A DNA stretch of 56,924 nucleotides, taken from the IMG/VR virus record IMGVR_UViG_3300045781_000081, positions 1-56,924 of that record; one strand, written 5' to 3'. Of the stretch, positions 31,983 through 56,924 are shown piece after piece; positions within the stretch are counted from its first letter, which is position 1; every line of letters starts with the position of its first letter. The DNA comes from a virus. Both the position numbers and the translations under genes were made by a program. The notes below the pieces were generated by a model. It did not search any database. It had not been told where the DNA came from and was given only the letters and a program-made list of their open reading frames with translations.

Positions 31983-33713
31983 TTACATCTCGCCCCGAAT
32001 ACGTCGCGCTGCCATCATGGAGCCGACTGACTGAGGTTTGGGGCGGCTCGCCAGGTTGAATTTGTACGTTTTGATGATGTCATACGTGTACGCCCAACCG
32101 TTGATACAGTCGGGATGGTAGTACGGGTGCAGGTCCATCTCTGTGGTGATTTTTAACATGTCCTCGTCACTCACCTCGGTGGACACATACAACTTCCCGT
32201 TGCAAAGCGGCCATTCCAGCGCGGCCTCGACGCGTTCTTCCGTGGACCTGCCACCGGGGCGTAGCAGTATGAGCGATCCCGTCTCGGTCGAGACGCGGCG
32301 TCCGTGCGCCTTGAGTGCGCCGGCAATGTGAATTTCCGTGGTGGACAGACCGACTTTCTCGACTGCGATTGCCCGGATGAAACCGCCGTTCAGGTACATG
32401 TCGATGACGGTGTTGATCGCCTCGGCGTGCGTCAGTTCGTCGGCAACCATCCGCTCCAGGTAGCAGTCCGACGCTCCCAGCTCGTTCATGATCGGGTTTA
32501 CGGAGATGATACCGATGAACCACTTGTCACCTTTACGGGTCGCTTTAGACCTGGTGTCGGTGCCACCGGCCTGGTCAATGATAAGGAACTTGTAACGGTC
32601 TTTCGGCATGAAACGCGGCTCGATCCGCTTGAGCATTTTGCTGTCAAGTTTCACGTCCTTAACCGGGGTCGGGTTGCAGAGCTGTTGTGAGTCAAAATAT
32701 TTACTGGTTTTCAGCTTGTCGAGTCGTTCCTGGGGGAGCAGCACTGGTCTGCCTGTCTTGGTGCCGTCGTGGGTAGCTGCTTTGATGATCGTTCGGTAGA
32801 GTTTTTCACCGTGAATGTCCTTCTTGTCACGGATTTGGACCAGCGCACCGACGTGGCTGTAATAGGTACCGACGATCAGCTCCGTACCACCATCCGTTCC
32901 AAGGTTGTCCGACATCTCAAACGCCGCGAAACAAAGGTTCAATTGATCCGGTGACTTGGCAATGTCGAATGTCTCGCAGTCGTCATAGACGCGATGATCA
33001 AAGTGACCACCCGTTGGCATCCCCTCGATCAGACCGAACGCCTCAACCGTGTTTTCCCTGCGACTGGCCGATTTCCGTTTGATCCGGATACCGTTTTGCA
33101 GCGACCAGGACGGCGATTCAGTGTCAGGTTTCTCGTAAAGAATATCGGGGAAACACTGCCACATGACCTCTTTTTGCAGCGTTTCGCGGATGCCGGACAG
33201 GAATTTGTCGGCTGCGGGTTTTTTGAAGGAGAATAACGCGGTGGTGCATTCCGGGTCGTTGAGGATACGCTTGATCGTCAAACCCATTGTGATCACAGTG
33301 GATTTGAAGTGCTCGCGTGCGTAGTTGTGGAACGCTCCGGTGTGGCTCAATCCACCGTCCGGGGTGCTCGCTTCCAGTTCGTTACACATTTCTACGACGA
33401 ACGGGTGGTTGGCCGGCGGCACCTCCATGATAAAATGGACGATGAAGAACAGGTCACCCTTGGTGAACAGCCGTACAATTGATTTTGCGAACCGCTCACG
33501 ATCTACCGGGGGCTGCGCGGCGATGTCGCGGAACGCTTTTTCATAGTCGTGGGCGTACCAGGTGAGCCAGGGGAAGTCAGGGTGTGACGCGGGGTCGGCT
33601 AGGTACTGGTCGTCAGACGGCAGAGACAGAGCAAACCGTGTCAGGTCGGCGTCATAGACGGACCTGCACGGCGCGATCTGCGGGTGCGGAATGAATTTTG
33701 GAAGCGTTTGCAA
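31983..33713 (-). CDS. terminase large subunit
   Basis: The open frame extends into the tRNA gene, so the start is placed at TTG 33713, five bases after GGAG. 576 residues. ATPase domain: an atypical P-loop AREHFKST, then KRILNDPECTTALFSFKK, and a Walker B-like stretch HRVYDDCET. Nuclease domain: FLIIDQAGGTDT with the metal-binding aspartate, later IRAIAVEKVGLSTTEI and VSTETGS. It cuts and pumps DNA through the portal encoded next to it. The phosphate loop lacks the usual glycines; this is seen in other phage terminases. Confidence 0.88.
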   Translation of the reverse strand: MQTLPKFIPHPQIAPCRSVYDADLTRFALSLPSDDQYLADPASHPDFPWLTWYAHDYEKAFRDIAAQPPVDRERFAKSIVRLFTKGDLFFIVHFIMEVPPANHPFVVEMCNELEASTPDGGLSHTGAFHNYAREHFKSTVITMGLTIKRILNDPECTTALFSFKKPAADKFLSGIRETLQKEVMWQCFPDILYEKPDTESPSWSLQNGIRIKRKSASRRENTVEAFGLIEGMPTGGHFDHRVYDDCETFDIAKSPDQLNLCFAAFEMSDNLGTDGGTELIVGTYYSHVGALVQIRDKKDIHGEKLYRTIIKAATHDGTKTGRPVLLPQERLDKLKTSKYFDSQQLCNPTPVKDVKLDSKMLKRIEPRFMPKDRYKFLIIDQAGGTDTRSKATRKGDKWFIGIISVNPIMNELGASDCYLERMVADELTHAEAINTVIDMYLNGGFIRAIAVEKVGLSTTEIHIAGALKAHGRRVSTETGSLILLRPGGRSTEERVEAALEWPLCNGKLYVSTEVSDEDMLKITTEMDLHPYYHPDCINGWAYTYDIIKTYKFNLASRPKPQSVGSMMAARRIRGEM

Positions 33714-33761
33714 TATGACTCCGCGTGTGCGGTTCGGGCGCGTGTGGCGTCGCAGGTTACT

Positions 33762-33837
33762 TGGCGGCGGGGGTTGGGATTGAACCAACGACCACGGGAT
33801 TCAAAGTCCCGCGCTCTACCAACTGAGCTACCCCGCT
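33762..33837 (-). tRNA. tRNA-Gln (anticodon TTG)
   Basis: A 76-base cloverleaf with encoded CCA. D-stem GCTC/GAGC, anticodon stem CGGGA/TCCCG with loop CTTTGAA (anticodon TTG, reads CAA), T-stem GTTGG/CCAAC with loop TTCAATC, and acceptor AGCGGGG against CCCCGCC followed by G73. The first pair is A1 with C72, a mismatch. tRNA-Gln normally has a weak 1-72 pair and G73, so the assignment is coherent. Its 5' two bases are also the end of the stop codon of the upstream gene at 33836. Confidence 0.93.
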
Positions 33838-45773: not shown

Positions 45774-48194
45774 TTACCCTCCTGCCGTTGCGAACGCCGG
45801 GCACGCCGCGCCAGGTGCTGCCGCTCCAATCTGGCAGTCCAGATAATGCTTGACGATTTCCACGTTGCCGACGATGTTGCCGACGATGTGTCCAATTTTG
45901 ATATAAAGCACAGGTTTCCCTATCAGACCGCAGGCGTCCTTTATGTTGTTGTTCACCTGCCCGTTTGCTAGTCCGGGGTGACGTTCGTACCCCAAACCGC
46001 GCATCATTTCCTTGCGTTTCACATGAGGCATCCGGTTGTTCATGTTGTTGTCCTTGAGCAACTTGTCGAGCGCCAGGCTTGACACCCAACCACCGATAAA
46101 ACCGGGTTGACCATTTGTTATGGCTGCGGCAACCTCCTGCTCGATGTTGCCGAGCGACAGACTCACCGCCTCGTCGCTGCTGCTGGATCGGGGAGCTTCC
46201 TGACAGTCGCGGGCCGGGTTCAGCTCGGCACACAGCGCGTATTTGTGCAGGTAGTCACATACAACAGCGTAGCCGTAGTTCGCACCGTGTTCCGCGTACT
46301 TCCCGCGCCCGGTAAACCAGTCGTAGAGGTCCGGGAAGTAGGAGCCGCCCATGCCGTCGCGCATCTTGTCGGACTTGCACTGCTGCGCGGTGTAGAGGAT
46401 GGTGTAGCGGCGCTGGTCGGCGGTGGTCGGCACACCATCCTTGTGGTTGGTACACATGACGCCGTTGGCGCGGTTGTCGCCGGTCACCTGGTCGCGTCCC
46501 TTCCCTTCGATCTGGATACGGTCGTTGGTCACAATCGCCTTGAACGCCTCCAGGAAGTCGCGCCGGTCGTTGACGTAAATTTCTTCGATCCCGATGAACA
46601 GTTTACCGACAATCCAGGAGTTGAATTTCGCTCCATTTCGTGCCATGTCGTCCACGTTCGGCAGATGGGAATACCGTTGCCCCACCGCGTGCGCCAGGCA
46701 CCGTATTATGGCACTCTTGCCGTTTCCTTCTGTGCCTTGGATAACCGGCCACCACTGAAATTTCGTGCCGGGGTTCTGAACCATCGACGCCATGTAGGTG
46801 AGCAGGATTTCCCGGTCGCGGTCCACCGGCAGTATCTTGCGCAGGAGCGACAGAAACGGTGTAGCATCGCCAGCAACGCGCCGGGTCTGTACCGGGGTGA
46901 ATGTGTTTACCGTGCGGCGGTTTTCTTCCACGGTGATAGCTCCAGCGGGTTGCTCCGGTCGGAAACAAACAGCGTGCGCTTTGGGGAACGACACAGCTTG
47001 GGATTTGGTGAAACATTCAAAAGCGGATTTGGTCGTTTTGGTCGCCTGGGAGTCCATGACGAAAAGTCGCCCGCCATACTCAACGTCGAACTGATCCGGT
47101 TTGAGCAGGTCGCCGTCCGGCACCAGCACACAATGACCCTGACGGATATAGCAGCATCCTTTAAAGAATTCCGGTTGCTCGCTGACGGTGCAGTAGGCAA
47201 CGCCGACGCCGGTAATCTCACCTGTCACCGGGTCGATGTGCTGCGTGGGGGCGGGCGCGGCAGGCTTGTCACCGAGCACTTTGCTGCACTGCCCAACTGC
47301 CTTTAGCACGCTGCGCTGCATGTACTGCTCGATGTGGTGACGTTCGGGCCGGAACAACGACGACATGCGGAACAGGCGGTCAATGCGGGCGCAATCCTTA
47401 CCAGTCCAGAACGCGAGGTGCTGCATAAGCGCAGCGTCGGCGGCGGACGCGTCATAACCGCTACCATGGTTATCCGGGTAAGTACGCAAGAGCGGTTCGT
47501 AGTTGGCGGACCATAAGTCTTGCACGGTGGCTTTACCACCCATGACAGCGGCAGCGGATGGTTTCGACAGGAGGATGCGGGACAGCAGGTCGTTGTCGTC
47601 GGTCGGTCCGTTCCAGGTGGGGTCCGGTCCGGTTGTCCATTCGGTTGACGGCGTTGCCACATCGCTGCCGGACCATCCCGGCCAGGCCAGCAGAGGTGCC
47701 AGGTCAGCGGGGCGGCTTGCGTCACCCTGCGCGTGGTAACCGGTCAGAGTGATAAAGTGACCTTTGTTAAAACCGTAGAGGTCGATCTGGTATGTTTTGT
47801 TCGACTCAGGATGGTTACCGAGCGGCGGGCAGGTGCCTATGATGTGTAAACCAGTTCCTGACGGCGACACTTCACAGTAGCACCCTGCATAATGAGCACA
47901 TATCTGTTGGGCGACGGGTGACCAGGTGCCGTCCGGCTGGAGCTGACCGTCGAGGTCGATACAGAAAAACGGGTCGGTTGCTTCAAACGAAAAACCTATT
48001 CCAGTTGCACCGCTTCCGGGTAGCGCGGCCAACGCCTCGGCACCCGTCATGCGGTTGGCAGGATCACGGTGACTGGCTTTCCAACCGGTGCGTGGGTCGA
48101 TGGAGATTTTGTCCATTTTACCCGGACGCGTTGTCGAGGGTATAGCTTTCCAAAGCACGAACTGGCGGTAGGCAGCCATGGCTTGAGGTATCAC
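45774..48194 (-). CDS. primase-polymerase/helicase, NrS-1-like
   Basis: GTG 48194 behind AGGAGG gives 806 residues. Residues 1-190 are an archaeo-eukaryotic-type prim-pol domain: FVLWKAIPSTT, FFCIDLDG with the two metal-binding aspartates, SPSGTGLHIIGTC with the histidine, and YQIDLYGFNKGHFITLTGY. The C-terminal half is an SF3-type (D5/VE-like) helicase: Walker A GTEGNGKSAIIRCLAHAVG, Walker B LFIGIEEIY, and a sensor TNHKDGVP then RRY. It likely primes and unwinds DNA for the family A polymerase. The layout resembles phage NrS-1 polymerase. Confidence 0.88.
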   Translation of the reverse strand: MIPQAMAAYRQFVLWKAIPSTTRPGKMDKISIDPRTGWKASHRDPANRMTGAEALAALPGSGATGIGFSFEATDPFFCIDLDGQLQPDGTWSPVAQQICAHYAGCYCEVSPSGTGLHIIGTCPPLGNHPESNKTYQIDLYGFNKGHFITLTGYHAQGDASRPADLAPLLAWPGWSGSDVATPSTEWTTGPDPTWNGPTDDNDLLSRILLSKPSAAAVMGGKATVQDLWSANYEPLLRTYPDNHGSGYDASAADAALMQHLAFWTGKDCARIDRLFRMSSLFRPERHHIEQYMQRSVLKAVGQCSKVLGDKPAAPAPTQHIDPVTGEITGVGVAYCTVSEQPEFFKGCCYIRQGHCVLVPDGDLLKPDQFDVEYGGRLFVMDSQATKTTKSAFECFTKSQAVSFPKAHAVCFRPEQPAGAITVEENRRTVNTFTPVQTRRVAGDATPFLSLLRKILPVDRDREILLTYMASMVQNPGTKFQWWPVIQGTEGNGKSAIIRCLAHAVGQRYSHLPNVDDMARNGAKFNSWIVGKLFIGIEEIYVNDRRDFLEAFKAIVTNDRIQIEGKGRDQVTGDNRANGVMCTNHKDGVPTTADQRRYTILYTAQQCKSDKMRDGMGGSYFPDLYDWFTGRGKYAEHGANYGYAVVCDYLHKYALCAELNPARDCQEAPRSSSSDEAVSLSLGNIEQEVAAAITNGQPGFIGGWVSSLALDKLLKDNNMNNRMPHVKRKEMMRGLGYERHPGLANGQVNNNIKDACGLIGKPVLYIKIGHIVGNIVGNVEIVKHYLDCQIGAAAPGAACPAFATAGG

Positions 48195-48202
48195 GTCGCC
48201 TC

Positions 48203-48526
48203 CTAGTGGTTCGTCGCAATCCAATGAATAGCGGCCTGTCTCAGTGCAGGCGGGCACGCTAAAATATGTGGGCACCGATGTATAGCAGCCTCACCGATAA
48301 TCTGCAAGATTTCATGTTCGATGGCGTGCGCTATGACAGCGGCACGGAGCGAGTCGGCGGTGTAGTAGTGCAGCACCAGGCCGATTGACACATTTGCCTC
48401 GCGGGCGACGGCAGAGCAACTGGTGCGGGAGTATCCGTCGCGGGTGGCAACTGCGATCGCAGCGGTGAGTATTCCGAGAGCGCGGGCGTCGGGTTCCAGG
48501 CGTCGGGGTGCGGTGGGGGTGGTCAT
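48203..48526 (-). CDS. TetR-like HTH regulator
   Basis: 107 residues behind GGAGG. ILTAAIAVATRDGYSRTSCS, then AVAREANVSIGLVLHYY is the TetR N-terminal helix-turn-helix, with a short helical C-terminus (AIEHEILQIIGEAAIH) instead of a full ligand domain. Many phages encode this compact form. It probably regulates the replication or small-gene operons. Overlaps the nuclease gene stop (ATGA). Confidence 0.75.
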   Translation of the reverse strand: MTTPTAPRRLEPDARALGILTAAIAVATRDGYSRTSCSAVAREANVSIGLVLHYYTADSLRAAVIAHAIEHEILQIIGEAAIHRCPHILACPPALRQAAIHWIATNH

Positions 48527-50577: not shown

Positions 50578-52307
50578 CGGCGTGCTCCCCCTGTGGTCGC
50601 TCCCGTGCGCAGCTCCGTGTCGAGGCGCACGATGTCATTGCAAAGCAGTTGTGTCATTTCGTCAGCGTCGGACCGACCGAGCGCCTGGGCGGACAGCACG
50701 TCGGTCTTGAACCGGTGGTAGAACCGGCGCTGTGCCTCGGCGATGTCGCGCCCCATGCTTGCCTGATACCCCATCCAGAGTTGCGCGGCCTCGCGCATGA
50801 ACGCCTGTGCAACCTGGCGCTCGCGGTGACGGTTGCGAGCTGCGAAAGCGACGACTTCGGGCTGTCCCATACGAATCATCTGGTTGAACACATACTGCGG
50901 GTCCGCGTCGATGCGCTCTTTCTCACCGCGCATGACCGCGAGGGTTGAAGGGTCAAGTTCCTCCAGCACGCCGTCAACCTGGTCCGGTGTGGACCGCTCG
51001 GCAGGTACCGGCACCATACCGCAGTACGGGCACTGCGACAGAAACCTTTCGTAAGGCCAGAGACATTCAGGGTTGGCGCAAGTCCGCATGGGGATAACGT
51101 CGGGGTCTTTGTTGGCGGTGCGACGCTCTTTGCGTTCTAGGCTCCACTCACGTGGGCGATCCGGCAGACCATGACGTAATACGTTATTTACATGGTCAAT
51201 TACAAAACCTACTTTTTTACCATCCATAAGTCTATCCATGCGACAAAACTGCTGGACATATAGACTATATGATTCCGTAGCTCGCCCCATAATCACTACT
51301 TCGACAGCCGGTACGTCTATACCTTCACCCAATATGTCCTGATTTGTGAGCATGAGCAATTCTCGTCGGGCGAAGCGTTTCATTATTTCAATGCGTGCTC
51401 GATCTGGTGTTTTAGCTGTAATGACTTCACAAGGTACACCTGCTTTGTTAAACTCAGCAGACCAAAGTGTTGCTGTTTCAACGTCGGGAGCAAACGTGAT
51501 GCCGAGTTTACCAGGTGTAATCCGTAAATAATGTTCGACCACATGACCTGTAATATTTGACTCACGAGTTTTCAATGCGAGCTGACCACGCACAAAGTCA
51601 CCGTCCGCGCCGGTCGCAACGGTAGACAGGTCCAAGTTGGATGGAGGGCAAAAGATACGGTAGTCGGTAAGGTACGGAGTGATTTTACCGTTCCAGTCTG
51701 GTATCCCGTTGATTAGCGTTCGCATGTCTGGCCCCTCGACCATCATGTCAAACACACCGTCTGCGTGTCGCCCAAGACCTTTACCGTCTGTGCGCTCCGG
51801 GGTCGCAGTGACACCAAGTCCTTTGGCGTTGGGGAACATGTCGATTGCCTTACCCCATTTATTGTCTTTGACAATATGGTGCGCCTCGTCAGTAACCCAA
51901 AGCGTGACCTGGTTGCACCACGCGGCCAGCGAGTCAGCGCGGCGCACTAATGTGTCCACACCAGCAACGGCAACGCGGCTGGAGGGATCGTAGAAGTCTT
52001 TTCCGAATAATTGGATATGGGATTGGATTATTGCTTTGATTACGTTGGGTGGGCCGATGATGCGGTGACGGACACCCCACATGGCGAGGGTGCGGGACAT
52101 CTGCCCGACCAGCTCCTGGCGGTGAGCGATGGCGAGGCAGGCACCATTGTGTTTCTCTATCTGGTCGGCGACAATGGGCGACTTCCCCCCACCGCACGCC
52201 ATTACAAATAGGACATTACGTTGCCCTGCGTTCCAGGCAGCATTTATCTGTATGTCGGCGACACTCTGGTATGTGCGTAATTTAGCTAACAACCTGCCCC
52301 CTGACAT
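50574..52307 (-). CDS. superfamily 2 DEAH-type helicase with zinc ribbon
   Basis: 577 residues. LRTYQSVADIQ, Walker A ACGGGKSP (residues 37-44), motif Ia AIAHRQELVGQM, motif II VTDEAHHI, motif III GVTATPERTDG. The second RecA domain has ITFAPDVETA, LTNQDILGEGIDVPAVEVVI and QQFCRMDR (motif VI). Then a zinc ribbon CANPECLWPYERFLSQCPYC and a helical C-terminus. It would remodel DNA in replication or recombination. The ATG at 52307 has no clear ribosome site, though GGGGG lies just inside. Confidence 0.93.
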   Translation of the reverse strand: MSGGRLLAKLRTYQSVADIQINAAWNAGQRNVLFVMACGGGKSPIVADQIEKHNGACLAIAHRQELVGQMSRTLAMWGVRHRIIGPPNVIKAIIQSHIQLFGKDFYDPSSRVAVAGVDTLVRRADSLAAWCNQVTLWVTDEAHHIVKDNKWGKAIDMFPNAKGLGVTATPERTDGKGLGRHADGVFDMMVEGPDMRTLINGIPDWNGKITPYLTDYRIFCPPSNLDLSTVATGADGDFVRGQLALKTRESNITGHVVEHYLRITPGKLGITFAPDVETATLWSAEFNKAGVPCEVITAKTPDRARIEIMKRFARRELLMLTNQDILGEGIDVPAVEVVIMGRATESYSLYVQQFCRMDRLMDGKKVGFVIDHVNNVLRHGLPDRPREWSLERKERRTANKDPDVIPMRTCANPECLWPYERFLSQCPYCGMVPVPAERSTPDQVDGVLEELDPSTLAVMRGEKERIDADPQYVFNQMIRMGQPEVVAFAARNRHRERQVAQAFMREAAQLWMGYQASMGRDIAEAQRRFYHRFKTDVLSAQALGRSDADEMTQLLCNDIVRLDTELRTGATTGGARR

Positions 52308-52319
52308 TACATATCATTA

Positions 52320-52349
52320 ACCGACCGCTTTACTGTCAAAGCGGTCGGT
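52320..52349. promoter_or_regulatory. 12-bp inverted repeat upstream of the SF2 helicase
   Basis: ACCGACCGCTTT (52320-52331) and AAAGCGGTCGGT (52338-52349) are perfect arms around a six-base centre. It lies 13 bases before the helicase ATG and downstream of the leftward promoter, so it could be an operator or an RNA hairpin in the leader. On one strand it is followed by no T-run, making a terminator less likely. Confidence 0.65.
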
Positions 52350-52378
52350 GAGACGCACCCCGCCCTGACATGGTGAGC

Positions 52379-52407
52379 ACCTTACTGATTGTTGATAGAG
52401 GTGTCAA
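52379..52407 (-). promoter_or_regulatory. leftward promoter for the helicase-nuclease-primase operon
   Basis: TTGACA (52407-52402) and TAAGGT (52384-52379) on the - strand are separated by 17 bases. The -35 is perfect, the -10 modest. The inverted repeat at 52320-52349 would lie in the 5' leader. The -35 sits in TATTGACA, and the rightward promoter has an identical octamer facing the other way 29 bases off. Confidence 0.5.
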
Positions 52408-52435
52408 TATATTTTTAACCGATGTAAAATAATTA

Positions 52436-52464
52436 TTGACAGGGGTGTAAATAACATATAGTGT
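52436..52464 (+). promoter_or_regulatory. rightward promoter for the replication operon
   Basis: TTGACA (52436-52441) and TAGTGT (52459-52464) on the + strand are 17 bases apart. It precedes the small Cys peptide and HU-like genes. Its -35 lies in TATTGACA, mirrored by TGTCAATA at 52402-52409, so one regulator bound at both could control both directions. Confidence 0.45.
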
Positions 52465-52499
52465 CCCGTATCACAGCACGCCATGCAGGGATAACTACT

Positions 52500-52598
52500 A
52501 TGATTTCGTGTCTCAACTGTAAAATGGTCCGTAAGTGTGGCACCGCTGGAGATATTGCTATCAATGTATTTCTTCAAGCACTCAAGAGTCGTGCTTGA
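52500..52598 (+). CDS. 32-residue cysteine-containing peptide
   Basis: ATG 52500, with AGGGA eight bases upstream. MISCLNCKMVRKCGTAGDIA, then INVFLQALKSRA: C-x2-C and a third cysteine, then a helix. It is the first frame after the rightward promoter and fills the gap before the HU-like gene. It may be a small metal-binding peptide or a leader. Moderate support. Confidence 0.45.
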   Translation: MISCLNCKMVRKCGTAGDIAINVFLQALKSRA

Positions 52599-52637
52599 AT
52601 TGAGAAAAGCGAACCGAGGGGGAGGTGATCCGACAGC

Positions 52638-52925
52638 GTGAACAAGGGAGAACTGGTGGCTAAGACCGCGAGGCGCACCGGGTTGAGCCGGCGGCGTTGC
52701 GACATCATCCTCAAGGCAGCGTTTGTGATAATTCGGGAAACAGGGCATTTGGAATACCGAGGGTTTGGAGTATTTCGCACCAAGATTACAGGCGTCCGTC
52801 CTTACAAACTAGGTTGGAACGGCGAGCAAAACGTGACGCTGGGTAAAAAGAAGCTCGTTTTTGATGAAAGTAAGACAGACCCACGAACTAAAACCAAGGA
52901 GGAAGTGAGTAATGACGCAACATAA
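52638..52925 (+). CDS. HU/IHF-like DNA-binding protein
   Basis: 95 residues from GTG 52638. MNKGELVAKTARRTGLSRRR is the HU N-terminal helix pair, followed by GHLEYRGFGVFRTK (HU FGxF). The DNA-wrapping arm differs from HU: VRPYKLGWNGEQNVTLGKKK replaces the usual RxGRNPxTGE, although GKKKLVFDES closes as in HU. It would bend or coat DNA, first in the replication operon. Overlaps the next gene by 14 bases. Confidence 0.8.
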   Translation: MNKGELVAKTARRTGLSRRRCDIILKAAFVIIRETGHLEYRGFGVFRTKITGVRPYKLGWNGEQNVTLGKKKLVFDESKTDPRTKTKEEVSNDAT

Positions 52926-53925
52926 CACGTTGAAAATCGAAGTCTCCACCACGGACGGGCGCACGATGATGGAGCTGGGAAAAATGTTCATGTCGCTCGC
53001 GGGGCAGGCGCTGGGAGCTGTGCAGGTCGATCTGGACCGGGACATTGTGCAGCGGCAGCACGACATGGCGTGCGATGTGATCAAAGAAGCGCACCGTGTC
53101 GGCAGCGACGAATACAAAGAAGCACAGAAAACCCTCAATGCTGAGGACTCCGCACGTGCTGATCTGGTTGCGTTGGTACCTGGCACCCCGTTCAATCCGT
53201 TCCAGGCCGGCGCACCTGCGCCGCCGCCACCCGCCGGCACGGTATTTCCCGGTACGCCGTTATCCGACATGATGCCGCCGCCCGCATTTCCGCTGGTTCC
53301 GACTCCCCCCGCACCGCTTGTGCCTGGCGTCGAACTGGACAGCGCCGGCATACCGTGGGACGCTCGCATTCACTCCAAAAGCAAGGCGAAACTTGCCAAA
53401 ACTGCCGAGTGGAAACTGGCTAAAAACATCGACAAGAACCTGGTAACCACAGTAATTGCCGAACTGAAAGCGGTCATGGCTTCTCAGGTAACACCCGCCG
53501 CGCCGGGTCTTCCGGTACAGCCGGTGGCTCCCCCTGCACCGCCGCAGGTTCCGACACCTCCGGTGATCCCGACAACACCCGTCGTTCCCGCGCCGCCCGT
53601 ACTGACGCTGGTTCCGACACCGCCCGCACCTCCGCAGGTGCCCGTAACGCCGCAGACGGTAGCGCCCGCAGGCGAGCCGCCCACGACCTTTCCGGCGTTC
53701 CTCCAGGCAATGACCGCGTTTCAGAACGCCGGCCAGGTCACCAACGAACAGATACTCCAGGTGCTGAATGCCTACGGTATCCCCAATCCGGCGCTGCTCA
53801 ACGCGAAGCGTGAGCTGATCCCGACCGTCTACCAGTACCTCACCTTCATCGCAAGCGGTGCCTGGACGCTTGAGCAGGTGCTGATTAGCATCGCGCAGCA
53901 ACTGGCGGGCGGCGCAGGCGCGTGA
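52912..53925 (+). CDS. proline-rich phage protein with LDSxGxPWDxRIHS motif
   Basis: 337 residues behind AAGGAGG. Residues 1-85 are a helical domain; a proline-rich linker follows; then VELDSAGIPWDARIHSKSKA, a signature seen in many phage replication-region proteins next to exonuclease and ssDNA-binding genes, ending near IAELKAVMASQ. A second long proline-rich linker (PVIPTTPVVPAPPVLTL) leads to a C-terminal helical domain. It may link recombination proteins; function unproven. Confidence 0.75.
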   Translation: MTQHNTLKIEVSTTDGRTMMELGKMFMSLAGQALGAVQVDLDRDIVQRQHDMACDVIKEAHRVGSDEYKEAQKTLNAEDSARADLVALVPGTPFNPFQAGAPAPPPPAGTVFPGTPLSDMMPPPAFPLVPTPPAPLVPGVELDSAGIPWDARIHSKSKAKLAKTAEWKLAKNIDKNLVTTVIAELKAVMASQVTPAAPGLPVQPVAPPAPPQVPTPPVIPTTPVVPAPPVLTLVPTPPAPPQVPVTPQTVAPAGEPPTTFPAFLQAMTAFQNAGQVTNEQILQVLNAYGIPNPALLNAKRELIPTVYQYLTFIASGAWTLEQVLISIAQQLAGGAGA

Positions 53926-54560
53926 TCATATACAAGGCCACCAACCTTGTGAACGGGAAAGTTTACGTAGGACAGACCATGCAACCGCTTTCGGTAAGAT
54001 TACACAGTCACAAACGATCTAAACACCCATTCGGTAGTGCTATCCGCAAATACGGAATGTTAAATTTTGATGTTGTAATTATAGATCGTGCCAATGGTAG
54101 ATTTTGTCTCAATAGCAAAGAATCATTTTGGATTGATTTTTATAAATGTATGGCACCGTCAGGTTACAATTTAACATCCGGTGGTGATGCACCAACCGAA
54201 ATTTCAGATGAAACCCGGATTAAACTTTCGGTGGCTACAACTAAGAGAATGGCATCCCCGGAAGCACGTGCTAAAGTATCAGCGGTACACTCAGGTAAAG
54301 TTGTATCACTGACAACGCGTGCGAAAATGTCAATTATACAACGGAACAAAATTACAACACTTGAGACGCGTATTAAAATGTCTGCTTCACAGTCTGGCCG
54401 AATCATAACACCGGAACACCGCGCAAAATTATCTGCTGCTGGCAAAAATAGGACACAAGAGGCACAAGACAGAATCACCGCTGGACTTATCGGAAGAAAA
54501 CTCTCTTTGGAGACGCGTGCTAAAATCTCCGCTTCGCATTTAGCGAGAAGGAAAACGAAT
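53922..54560 (+). mobile_element. in-frame GIY-YIG homing endonuclease insert
   Basis: The segment is visibly richer in A and T than the DNA on both sides, with adenine-rich codon use (AAA, ATA, ACA), and encodes only GIY-YIG plus NUMOD3 repeats. It occupies the exact 5' edge of the exonuclease gene, without a stop, so it looks like a homing endonuclease that entered at the start codon and fused. No intron structure is evident. Whether its boundary is at the GTG or slightly upstream is not resolvable here. Confidence 0.72.
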
Positions 54561-55709
54561 ATGAGTCATAAACATGCTTTACTTTCTCCATCAGGAGCAA
54601 GCCGTTGGGTTGCTTGTCCGGGGAGTGTGCAAATGTGTCAGCAATTCCCCGAACAAGGACGTTCAGAGGACGCTGAGTTAGGCACCGCCGTACATTGGGT
54701 CGGTAGCGAAGCGTTGGAGGGTAAACCGATGCCCGTTCCCGGCGCGGTATCACCTAACGGCATTGTGATCACCCTGGAGATGGTCGAGTGCGCAGGCGTC
54801 TACGTGCAGGCGGCTATCCAAGGTGCGCAGGGTGCGGCGATTTACGCCGTCGAGCAGCATATGGTTATCAGCCGGGTGCACCCGGAATGCCACGGTACGC
54901 CGGACTTGCGCTACTGGTTACCGACTCCTAACGAACTTCACGTGTGGGATTACAAAAACGGTTTCGGCATTGTCGAGCCGTATGAAAACTGGCAGTTGAT
55001 TTGCTACGCTGCCGGGGCGATTGACGAGGTGGCGGCGTTCACCGGTCAGGAAGTCGGCATTCTCGACCAGCATCTCACCGTCGTGCTCCATATCGTGCAA
55101 CCGCGACCGTTCCACGCGCTCGGCCCGATCCGCGAATGGCGGGTCAAGGCAAGCGACCTGCGGGCACACATCAATCGACTGACACATTCGGCTACGCTGG
55201 CGCTCCAGCAGCAGGCCGCGTGTACCAGCGGCGAGCACTGTCGTTACTGCAACGGTCGCCGGGGTTGCCCGACGCTCCAGCACGCCGCGATGATTGCGGT
55301 GGACTATACGTGCAGCACTTCCGCGTGTCAGCTCTCACCGGCAGCACTGGCAATCGAGTTGCGGACCCTCCAGCGGTGCGCCGAGTTGGTCAAGGCACGC
55401 CTCACTGGTATGGAACAGCAGGCCATGGGGATCATCAAAAGCGGCACTTCTGTGCCCGGTTTCGTCCTGGAGGTGGGCAAGGGTAGGCCCGTCTGGAAAA
55501 AGCCCGTTGGAGAGGTACTGGCGCTCGGCCAAATGCTAGGTAAGAACTTCGCCGCACCCCAGGAAGCAGTCACACCAGCGGTCGCAAAACGCATGGGACT
55601 TGACGACGAGCTTCTGGCGCTCTACAGCGAGACGCCGAGCAACGGTTTCAAACTGGTTCCCAACGATAAATCCCGCATCGCGTCGGTATTCGGTTCACAG
55701 GCAACTTAA
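53922..55709 (+). CDS. GIY-YIG homing endonuclease fused to DUF2800 exonuclease
   Basis: One open frame of 595 codons from GTG 53922 (GTGA overlap). Residues 1-213 form a GIY-YIG domain: IIYKATNLVNGKVYVGQT, FGSAIRKYGMLNFDV, ESFWIDFYK and APSGYNLTSGG. It is followed by about seven NUMOD3-type repeats such as ETRIKLS, EARAKVS, TRAKMS and EHRAKLS. From residue 214 (ATG 54561, with AAGGA eight bases upstream) it is a DUF2800 PD-(D/E)XK RecB-like exonuclease: HALLSPSGASRWVACPGSV, LGTAVHWVGSEAL, CHGTPDLRYW and ELHVWDYKNGFG, and a C-x2-C near the end. The exonuclease alone would be 382 residues. Confidence 0.88.
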   Translation: MIIYKATNLVNGKVYVGQTMQPLSVRLHSHKRSKHPFGSAIRKYGMLNFDVVIIDRANGRFCLNSKESFWIDFYKCMAPSGYNLTSGGDAPTEISDETRIKLSVATTKRMASPEARAKVSAVHSGKVVSLTTRAKMSIIQRNKITTLETRIKMSASQSGRIITPEHRAKLSAAGKNRTQEAQDRITAGLIGRKLSLETRAKISASHLARRKTNMSHKHALLSPSGASRWVACPGSVQMCQQFPEQGRSEDAELGTAVHWVGSEALEGKPMPVPGAVSPNGIVITLEMVECAGVYVQAAIQGAQGAAIYAVEQHMVISRVHPECHGTPDLRYWLPTPNELHVWDYKNGFGIVEPYENWQLICYAAGAIDEVAAFTGQEVGILDQHLTVVLHIVQPRPFHALGPIREWRVKASDLRAHINRLTHSATLALQQQAACTSGEHCRYCNGRRGCPTLQHAAMIAVDYTCSTSACQLSPAALAIELRTLQRCAELVKARLTGMEQQAMGIIKSGTSVPGFVLEVGKGRPVWKKPVGEVLALGQMLGKNFAAPQEAVTPAVAKRMGLDDELLALYSETPSNGFKLVPNDKSRIASVFGSQAT

Positions 55710-55716
55710 CCGCTTG

Positions 55717-55734
55717 CCGGGTGCGATAACCCGG
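55717..55734. promoter_or_regulatory. small hairpin between exonuclease and ssDNA-binding genes
   Basis: CCGGGT (55717-55722) pairs with ACCCGG (55729-55734) around GCGATA in the 52-base gap. No T-run follows, so this is probably a leader hairpin or RNA processing site rather than a terminator. The downstream gene has AGAGGG before its ATG. Confidence 0.4.
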
Positions 55735-55761
55735 TGGTTTCACCTCAAGAGGGCATGACAA

Positions 55762-56736
55762 ATGGACATTTTATTTCCACCGGGAAGGATGATCGGCGGC
55801 AATGTTGATAAACTGTTCCCGCGCACCGACAACACCACGAATCAGCCGAAAATCGGCAAAGACGGTAGCCCGGAGATGCAGTGCTCTATCGGGTACGCGA
55901 TCCCCAAGAATCCCGGCGAGCAGGCGTGGTACCAGACCGCGTGGGGCGCTGAGATTTACAAGATCGGCGCGGCAGCTCACCCGAACCTGGTTGCCTCGCC
56001 CGCGTTCTCCTGGAAGATCACGGACGGCGACAGCATGCTCCCCAACAAGAAGGGCAAACGTCCCTGCGACCAGGTAGGGTACCCCGGCCATTGGGTACTG
56101 TGGCTTTCACAGTGGTGGTTGCCGAAACGCGTGAACGCCAACGGCTCGGTTGAACTGCCGGAAGGGTCCATTATCGCCGGGTACTACGTGCAGATTTTCG
56201 GCTCGGTCAACGGTAACAAACTGGTGCAGAACGGCACGCCGGGCGTCTACCTCAATCCCATCGCGGTGGCGCTGGTTGGCGAGGGTGACAAAATCGCCAC
56301 GGACGTTGACACCACGTCGGTTGGTTTCGGCGCGGCTCCCATGCCTGCCGGGGCACGTCCGGTTACCATGGCTGCTCCGCAGTTCGCACCGCCGGTACCG
56401 GGTCAGATGCCCGGCGTGCCGCCTATGCCCGGTCAGATGCCGGCGCCCCCCATGCCGCAACAGCAGTACCAGCAGCCCGTCGCACCGCCGGTACCGGGTC
56501 AGATGCCCGGCGTGCCGGGTCAGGGTTACCCCGCAGGCGGCGTCCAGCCGGCACCCAACTACATGGCACCGCCGGTACCGGATCAGATGCCCGGCACACC
56601 GCCCGTCCCGCCGACTCCCCCTGCACCTGGCCCGCAAATGACGGCGACGGCACAGCAGGCCGGTCTGACTTATGCGGCGCTCAAGGGGAACAACTGGACC
56701 GACGACCAGATGCGCGGCGCGGGGTACATCGTCTGA
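55762..56736 (+). CDS. DUF2815-like ssDNA-binding protein with proline-rich tail
   Basis: 324 residues. Residues 1-190 follow the DUF2815 pattern: ILFPPGRMIGGNVDKLFPRT, MQCSIGYAIPKN, DQVGYPGHWVLWLS and PEGSIIAGYYVQIFGSVNGN, then NPIAVALVGEGD. These proteins are phage OB-fold ssDNA-binding proteins. The remaining 130 residues are proline- and glutamine-rich with four APPVPGQMPG-type repeats. The last 25 residues (GLTYAALKGNNWTDDQMRGA) look like a conserved C-terminal tip. It works with the exonuclease and polymerase. Confidence 0.86.
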   Translation: MDILFPPGRMIGGNVDKLFPRTDNTTNQPKIGKDGSPEMQCSIGYAIPKNPGEQAWYQTAWGAEIYKIGAAAHPNLVASPAFSWKITDGDSMLPNKKGKRPCDQVGYPGHWVLWLSQWWLPKRVNANGSVELPEGSIIAGYYVQIFGSVNGNKLVQNGTPGVYLNPIAVALVGEGDKIATDVDTTSVGFGAAPMPAGARPVTMAAPQFAPPVPGQMPGVPPMPGQMPAPPMPQQQYQQPVAPPVPGQMPGVPGQGYPAGGVQPAPNYMAPPVPDQMPGTPPVPPTPPAPGPQMTATAQQAGLTYAALKGNNWTDDQMRGAGYIV

Positions 56737-56745
56737 CAAGAGGAA

Positions 56746-56904
56746 CTGTGGCAGTTCGATAGCGGTTATTTCTGCGCGGGGGCAGCATTTGTAGACGGGC
56801 ACTGCGTCGATGCTGCCCCCATCATCCGGTGGATGATCGGTATGACTGACCAGGAAATTTTACAGACCAAAGCGGCAATGTGGAAAATTACAATGATACT
56901 GTGA
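56746..56904 (+). CDS. short phage protein with FDSGYFCAG motif, CTG start likely
   Basis: Directly after the TGA of the ssDNA-binding gene, the same frame stays open: LWQFDSGYFCAGAAFVDG, then AAPIIRWMIGM. This is the pattern of a ~50-residue phage family that normally begins MWxFxSGYFCAG. No ATG, GTG or TTG exists at the proper place; CTG at 56746 stands where the methionine is expected, with AGAGGA one base upstream. The first ATG in frame would remove the motif. The gene therefore uses a rare start or read-through. It continues past the right-hand cut. Confidence 0.6.
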   Translation: MWQFDSGYFCAGAAFVDGHCVDAAPIIRWMIGMTDQEILQTKAAMWKITMIL

Positions 56905-56924
56905 GAGGGGGGGGGAGTCATGGG
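56790..56924. repeat. terminal direct repeat, right copy
   Basis: Right copy of the 136-base end repeat, 135 bases long because its G-run is nine rather than ten. It contains the 3' end of the FDSGYFCAG-type gene and the start of the 30-residue membrane peptide gene, whose remainder is at 137-224. Confidence 0.9.

Follow-up and report, generated by a model that had tools for sequence, protein, structure and literature searches.

A GIY-YIG homing endonuclease reading frame that runs without a stop into a DUF2800 exonuclease gene in a viral genome

Introduction

In phage T4, the Seg-type GIY-YIG endonucleases (segA-segG) lie between conserved replication and recombination genes and are absent from relatives, and the free-standing endonucleases of T4 occupy reading frames of their own (PMC2988022). 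Start/stop overlaps and GUG starts are known among them: the start of mobE overlaps the upstream stop, an arrangement for which re-initiation at the overlap has been proposed, and mobA has a GTG start (PMC2988022). Here we describe an open reading frame (ORF) at 53922-55709 (+) of the viral record IMGVR_UViG_3300045781_000081, a stretch of 56,924 bases that was analysed whole and is referred to below as the window, in which a Seg-like endonuclease likewise sits between conserved genes and shares both the overlapping start and the GTG codon, but lacks a stop, so that its frame runs on through the gene downstream.

The downstream gene encodes a DUF2800 exonuclease. DUF2800 proteins have been annotated as PD-(D/E)XK nuclease-like, and a DUF2800-gp2.5-polA module is present in many phages (PMC8093625); its gene order is identical to that of the window, although the module as described has no endonuclease preceding DUF2800. 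Endonuclease and exonuclease are also joined in one chain in bacterial proteins that combine a Cho-like GIY-YIG domain with an exonuclease of the epsilon/ExoIII type (PMC1564403). Those proteins, however, carry a repair-type GIY-YIG domain with an exonuclease of a different fold at the N-terminus, recur in bacteria and are not mobile, and the ORF described here is not one of them: its exonuclease is DUF2800 and C-terminal and its GIY-YIG domain is of the homing type. Another comparison is offered by Odn of phage ICP1 (PMC8263062), a chimeric nuclease that combines a homing-endonuclease (T5orf172) domain with a second phage/satellite domain. The window ORF is chimeric in a similar way, but in Odn the partner is a DNA-binding domain and the protein a tested anti-satellite weapon, whereas the partner here is a putative catalytic exonuclease.

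Results

The ORF begins with GTG, ends with TAA and has 595 codons and no internal stop. Residues 1-213 form a GIY-YIG/NUMOD3 homing endonuclease and residues 214-595 a complete DUF2800 exonuclease, with no stop between them, and the 639 bp insert is flanked by two intact genes. An earlier note on this DNA had read here a GIY-YIG domain with about seven NUMOD3 repeats running stop-free into a complete DUF2800 domain, and the ORF itself, Pfam, PHROGs, the I-TevI profile match and a reading of the repeat units by eye all agree with it. The features of the locus are as follows (GC3, G+C content at third codon positions; sources in brackets).

52912-53925 (+), upstream gene, phrog_11133, 337 aa, intact, conserved next to DUF2800 exonuclease genes; stop codon TGA and endonuclease start GTG overlap as GTGA
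53922-54560 (+), inserted GIY-YIG/NUMOD3 homing endonuclease, 213 codons, GTG start, without its own stop (Pfam, PHROGs, relatives, I-TevI match, model)
53922-54188 (+), GIY-YIG catalytic domain (27-sequence alignment, I-TevI match, AlphaFold2)
54204-54557 (+), seven NUMOD3-like units of ~17 residues each, residues 95-212 (translation by eye, Pfam, model)
54546-54552 (+), AGAAGGA, Shine-Dalgarno-like, for the exonuclease, within the last endonuclease codons (anti-Shine-Dalgarno energy)
54561-55709 (+), complete DUF2800/phrog_69 exonuclease, 382 aa, from its native ATG (Pfam, PHROGs, relatives, alignment, model)
54561-54665 (+), exonuclease 5' end with endonuclease-like low GC3, probably co-acquired (composition; jedunavirus parallel)
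55762-56736 (+), Gp2.5-like ssDNA-binding/annealing protein (PHROGs; module in PMC8093625)
1219-3387 (+), DNA polymerase belonging to this module, which follows once the contig ends are joined (terminal repeat 1-135 / 56790-56924)

The identity of the endonuclease part is supported by several lines of evidence. Pfam matches comprise GIY-YIG at residues 2-74, a hit (E 0.0024) too weak to pass the curated cut-off, and NUMOD3 at residues 191-206 (E 8e-7), and PHROGs homing-endonuclease families match residues 2-168 with E-values down to 1e-33. The I-TevI catalytic-domain structures (1mk0, 1ln0) are matched over positions 3-90 (E ~2e-10) by a profile that combines the window endonuclease with 26 relatives, and all of the invariant residues of this 27-sequence alignment are present in the window (Y4, Y15-x-G17, R26, E67, N83, G87, G88), as is the nearly invariant H30. 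AlphaFold2, with which the endonuclease and exonuclease domains were modelled separately, gave the endonuclease a mean predicted local distance difference test (pLDDT) score of 88.8, with values of 96-98 across residues 1-80, and rendered the NUMOD3-like units, presumably a DNA-binding tail, as a chain of helices.

Relatives of the endonuclease occur at 79 loci in IMG/VR, many of them free-standing. Many of the free-standing relatives have the identical MIIYKATN start, and the 3' end is often a NUMOD3 unit followed by a short basic tail. One of them (L016) is also 213 aa long and ends in KISESLKRKRG; the C-terminus of the window endonuclease is KISASHLARRKTN, and the very next residue is the exonuclease methionine. 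The shared start and tail indicate that the window endonuclease is essentially full length and that the stop codon alone is missing. At none of the 79 loci does the endonuclease relative adjoin a DUF2800 gene.

The exonuclease part matches Pfam DUF2800 over residues 218-527 of the fused ORF (E 9e-40) and the PHROGs exonuclease family phrog_69 over residues 203-585 (E 1e-60). It starts at ATG 54561 (MSHKHALLSPSGASRW), a position homologous to the start of its relatives. In an alignment of 28 exonucleases, the PD-(D/E)XK-type residues E98, D115 and K132 are invariant and D130 and Q145 nearly so, and four cysteines, one N-terminal (C19) and three C-terminal (C227, C230, C236), are present in every sequence; by its likeness to the cysteine pattern of AddB/Cas4, this arrangement suggests an iron-sulphur cluster. 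When the exonuclease alignment was run as a profile against PDB sequences, no match emerged, and fold comparison was used instead: the AlphaFold2 model (mean pLDDT 90.0) has as its best PDB matches AdnAB, a Cas4-family protein, RecE and SSO0001, with modest TM-scores, which points to a predicted fold of the AddB/Cas4/RecE nuclease type. The gene is followed by the Gp2.5-like protein and, across the joined contig ends, by the DNA polymerase. Those ends (1-135 and 56790-56924) carry the same ~135-base repeat, differing by one G within a G run, so the record is probably a complete circular or terminally repeated phage genome.

The order of upstream gene and exonuclease is conserved in unrelated phages of Shewanella, Pseudomonas, Vibrio and Klebsiella, and in most relatives the site is empty, the upstream stop abutting or overlapping the exonuclease start. 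When DUF2800 loci were compared (129 distinct loci after duplicates were merged), an in-frame N-terminal extension of more than 100 residues was found at one only, that of the window, where it measures 213 residues; the second-longest extension, of 97 residues, appears to be an overlapping upstream gene in another frame. The endonuclease is absent from the three closest exonuclease relatives (L089-L091, 50-52% identity). That an endonuclease had been inserted before the exonuclease, as the earlier note proposed, is thus upheld both by the lack of the extension at the other 128 loci and by the existence of free-standing endonuclease relatives, and relatives with the same N-terminus, which the note had named as the observation that would count against it, did not appear among those 128. 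A contrast that it drew with the usual siting of such genes between genes does not hold: the endonuclease does sit between two intact genes, and other homing endonuclease genes occupy the same junction. The same fusion was not found in close relatives in INPHARED by tblastn, where no phage record covers 80% of the fused protein, nor in IMG/VR, searched with window exonuclease peptides and by a further search, nor in GTDB genome contigs. As a separate observation, the Klebsiella jedunavirus KpTDp1 (L176, 1402-2466) and its IMG/VR relative L183 have a 54-codon ORF at the junction in frame with the DUF2800 exonuclease, and the GenBank annotation of KpTDp1 is that of the longer exonuclease; this in-frame opening could be due to chance.

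Other mobile genes have entered the same place. In the Klebsiella jedunaviruses KpV52, SBP and FZ14 an HNH homing endonuclease lies at the junction, which is empty in KpV79, and there is a 29-nt overlap of the HNH reading frame onto the exonuclease start, in a different frame. A second HNH lineage occupies the junction in a contig with a different exonuclease lineage (L195, 2459-2998), where it overlaps the exonuclease as ATGA. These HNH-AP2 endonucleases share with the window endonuclease the insertion point, the two flanking genes and a 3' end that lies over the exonuclease start, but they are of an unrelated fold and their overlaps, 29 nt or the 4-nt ATGA, are in another frame and yield two proteins. 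The presence of unrelated endonucleases in both the jedunaviruses and L195 marks the junction as a repeatedly invaded spot. By-eye reading of the small junction ORFs of the jedunaviruses JD001, Geezett and RCIP0080 revealed no homing-endonuclease likeness. Unrelated cargo is seen in the junction at four further loci (L113, L157, L158 and L090; ~530 nt upstream of the exonuclease); judged by eye, it apparently consists of a DUF1643-like protein, DnaQ-like exonucleases and a P-loop protein.

The endonuclease part is AT-richer than its flanks, as had been noticed earlier, with a GC content of 0.42 versus 0.62 upstream and 0.61 in the distal exonuclease, but the tract runs past the domain border. 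Its change-points are at 53958 and 54666; the latter, the best 3' change-point, lies ~105 nt into the exonuclease, and positions up to ~54726 fit nearly equally. GC3 is 0.70 in the upstream gene and 0.31 in most of the endonuclease, and within the exonuclease it rises from 0.33 (codons 1-30) through 0.53 (codons 31-60) to 0.71 in the remainder. A 5' drop in GC3 as large as this occurs in none of 51 other ORFs, with ORF 608-1267 close. This extent of the low-GC3 tract, to ~105 nt past the exonuclease start, suggests that the exonuclease 5' end arrived together with the insert. Comparison with insert-free relatives, recommended by the earlier note for finding the exact boundaries, did match the exonuclease start; the ends of the insert are less sharp than the note implied, since foreign composition carries on into the exonuclease gene. 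At the other end, the first 25 codons of the endonuclease (53922-53996) have a GC3 of 0.64 versus 0.31 in the rest, which could reflect amelioration, a chimeric 5' end or chance.

A parallel is provided by the jedunaviruses. Relative to KpV79, the 48 nt preceding a conserved exonuclease anchor are 56-79% identical and the next 150 nt are 91-95% identical (the mis-anchored loci L184-L187 were left out of this comparison). As the drop in identity is common to alleles with endonuclease and with non-endonuclease cargo, it places exchange breakpoints within the exonuclease 5' end. Both the composition tract and this identity pattern fit what is known from T4, where DNA repair copies flanking sequence along with the inserted endonuclease gene (PMC2988022), and the finding of nuclease genes at the borders of genetic exchange (PMC10448857).

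ATG 54561, within the ORF, was proposed previously as the old start of the exonuclease, and the relatives indeed begin there. AGAAGGA lies eight bases upstream, the anti-Shine-Dalgarno energy is -5.7 kcal/mol and local structure is weak; that energy beats 82% of the ATGs in the window, such that the description of the ribosome site as good is fair, if the site itself is moderate. Read in the +1 frame, the endonuclease tail would stop at an ATGA over the exonuclease start, which is the arrangement seen in L195. According to the models, the endonuclease tail ends helical and the first nine exonuclease residues are non-helical, which makes a short, flexible connection between the two domains probable, one that need not disturb either.

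Discussion

The window endonuclease has the GIY-YIG catalytic residues, the NUMOD-type C-terminal repeats, the site between conserved genes and the absence from relatives that are typical of Seg-like endonucleases, but its frame continues to 55709 where a separate frame with its own stop would be expected, and because it lacks that stop we class it as a variant of the free-standing type. Taken on its sequence, ORF 53922-55709 is an uncommon but readily explained form of a familiar class of mobile gene, the free-standing phage homing endonuclease. We think it likely that a Seg-like endonuclease homed into the junction, that the run-on fusion is a by-product and that the exonuclease is made from its own start.

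In such a scheme, a free-standing Seg-like GIY-YIG/NUMOD3 gene would have inserted downstream of the phrog_11133 gene and ahead of the DUF2800 exonuclease gene in the recombination/replication module. Ribosomes finishing the upstream gene at GTGA could re-initiate on the overlapping GTG and translate the endonuclease and, as this has no stop and is in the frame of the exonuclease, the re-initiation route would lead to the 595-residue fusion, presumably made at a low level. The exonuclease itself would come mainly from ATG 54561 by way of the Shine-Dalgarno sequence in the last endonuclease codons. The endonuclease would spread by cutting endonuclease-free alleles of the region, whose repair would copy the gene together with its flanks, including the exonuclease 5' end, as the composition and the jedunavirus alleles suggest. 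Most likely, the fusion is a tolerated side effect of the place at which the frame happened to end and not a purpose-built enzyme. Its simplest origin would be an accident of frame at an overlapping 3' end: when the end of one gene overlaps the start of its neighbour, about one frame in three should be the neighbour's own, and a small indel in the tail would act alike.

Several observations weigh against this explanation. The closest exonuclease relatives are only ~51% identical, so that the recipient sequence and the exact ends of the insert would hardly be readable from them. The internal Shine-Dalgarno sequence is moderate, with 18% of the ATGs in the window having an equal or better one. 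An intact frame across both domains would also be expected of a selected fusion, and the 5' drop in exonuclease GC3 could stem in part from selection near start codons.

It is conceivable that the run-on itself is the anomaly: the actual or ancestral arrangement would be two cistrons with an ATGA overlap, turned into one frame by a minor frameshift or the loss of a stop in the endonuclease tail, genuine or introduced in assembly. One short indel in the last codons would suffice, the +1 frame would then end over the exonuclease start like the HNH endonuclease of L195, and instability of homing endonuclease genes through frameshifts and variable stops has been documented in ICP1 phages (PMC10448857). 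Nevertheless, the NUMOD3 pattern is kept to within ~five codons of the junction, the basic tail is normal and no direct sign of assembly error was seen, and we regard this alternative as rather unlikely, although a frameshift in the ancestry of the locus would be compatible with homing of a Seg-like gene and a by-product fusion. An origin as an intron- or intein-encoded endonuclease with a misread host gene might be considered, as phage introns commonly carry GIY-YIG endonucleases, and an apparent intron case is found in Vibrio phage VP-1 (MH363700, 74807-78149). There, the protein annotated as terminase large subunit has a GIY-YIG domain at its end, continuing the frame of the first terminase piece, and a second terminase piece comes after it; this is probably an intron, missing from the annotation, whose endonuclease is in frame. 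In the window, both the upstream gene and the exonuclease are complete, a search for introns gave no Rfam match within 52300-56924, and there is no splicing domain among the Pfam matches, the nuclease domain starting at residue 1; we rejected this origin as scarcely credible. The in-frame architecture would equally suit an old fusion, with a domesticated N-terminal DNA-binding/nuclease module fixed in an exonuclease lineage. That module is missing from the closest relatives and from all other loci, and the composition of the endonuclease still looks foreign, such that an old fusion is contradicted by relatives at the depth sampled and is highly improbable.

A further alternative is that the 595-residue fusion is a functional bifunctional nuclease, in which the GIY-YIG domain breaks the site and DUF2800 resects the ends, aiding homing or excluding competitors. 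There is a single intact frame in which both active sites are preserved, the exonuclease belongs to the DUF2800-gp2.5-polA module (PMC8093625), and bacterial GIY-YIG fusions to a different exonuclease exist (PMC1564403). A two-step nuclease is attractive because T4 homing requires exonuclease and single-strand-binding functions of the phage (PMC2988022). On the other hand, the architecture occurs once among 129 loci, no INPHARED record covers 80% of the fused protein, the exonuclease retains its native start and Shine-Dalgarno sequence and, as has been warned, single GIY-YIG fusions may reflect domain mobility (PMC1564403); we therefore consider a functional fusion unlikely. Its more specific form, a two-step homing machine in which a GIY-YIG domain tethered to a recombination exonuclease passes its break to resection by the same molecule, is doubtful to a slightly greater degree; if true, it would raise homing or exclude rival phages. 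The earlier note's suggestion that the fusion might target the nuclease to recombination intermediates found no support, and its other suggestion, that the fusion may let both proteins be made from one message, does not call for a fusion at all, as co-transcription with neighbouring genes, and overlap with them, is common among free-standing phage homing endonuclease genes (PMC2988022, PMC3468402).

With fused, empty and unrelated-endonuclease alleles at one junction, the locus offers a natural test of a homing endonuclease riding the frame of an essential gene. A functional fusion would couple cleavage and resection in one protein, and one without function would show how chance fusions arise from the overlapping 3' ends typical of such elements. 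The junction preceding the DUF2800 exonuclease looks like a landing site that has been used repeatedly in several phage groups.

Two further observations concern other parts of the record. A tRNA-Gln (TTG) gene at 33762-33837 (-) and the start region annotated for the terminase large subunit (ORF 31983-33788, -) overlap, which suggests that the terminase starts later. The ORF at 45774-48275 (-) encodes a primase/helicase with NrS-1 polymerase-like HBD and DUF5906 domains (phrog_1829).

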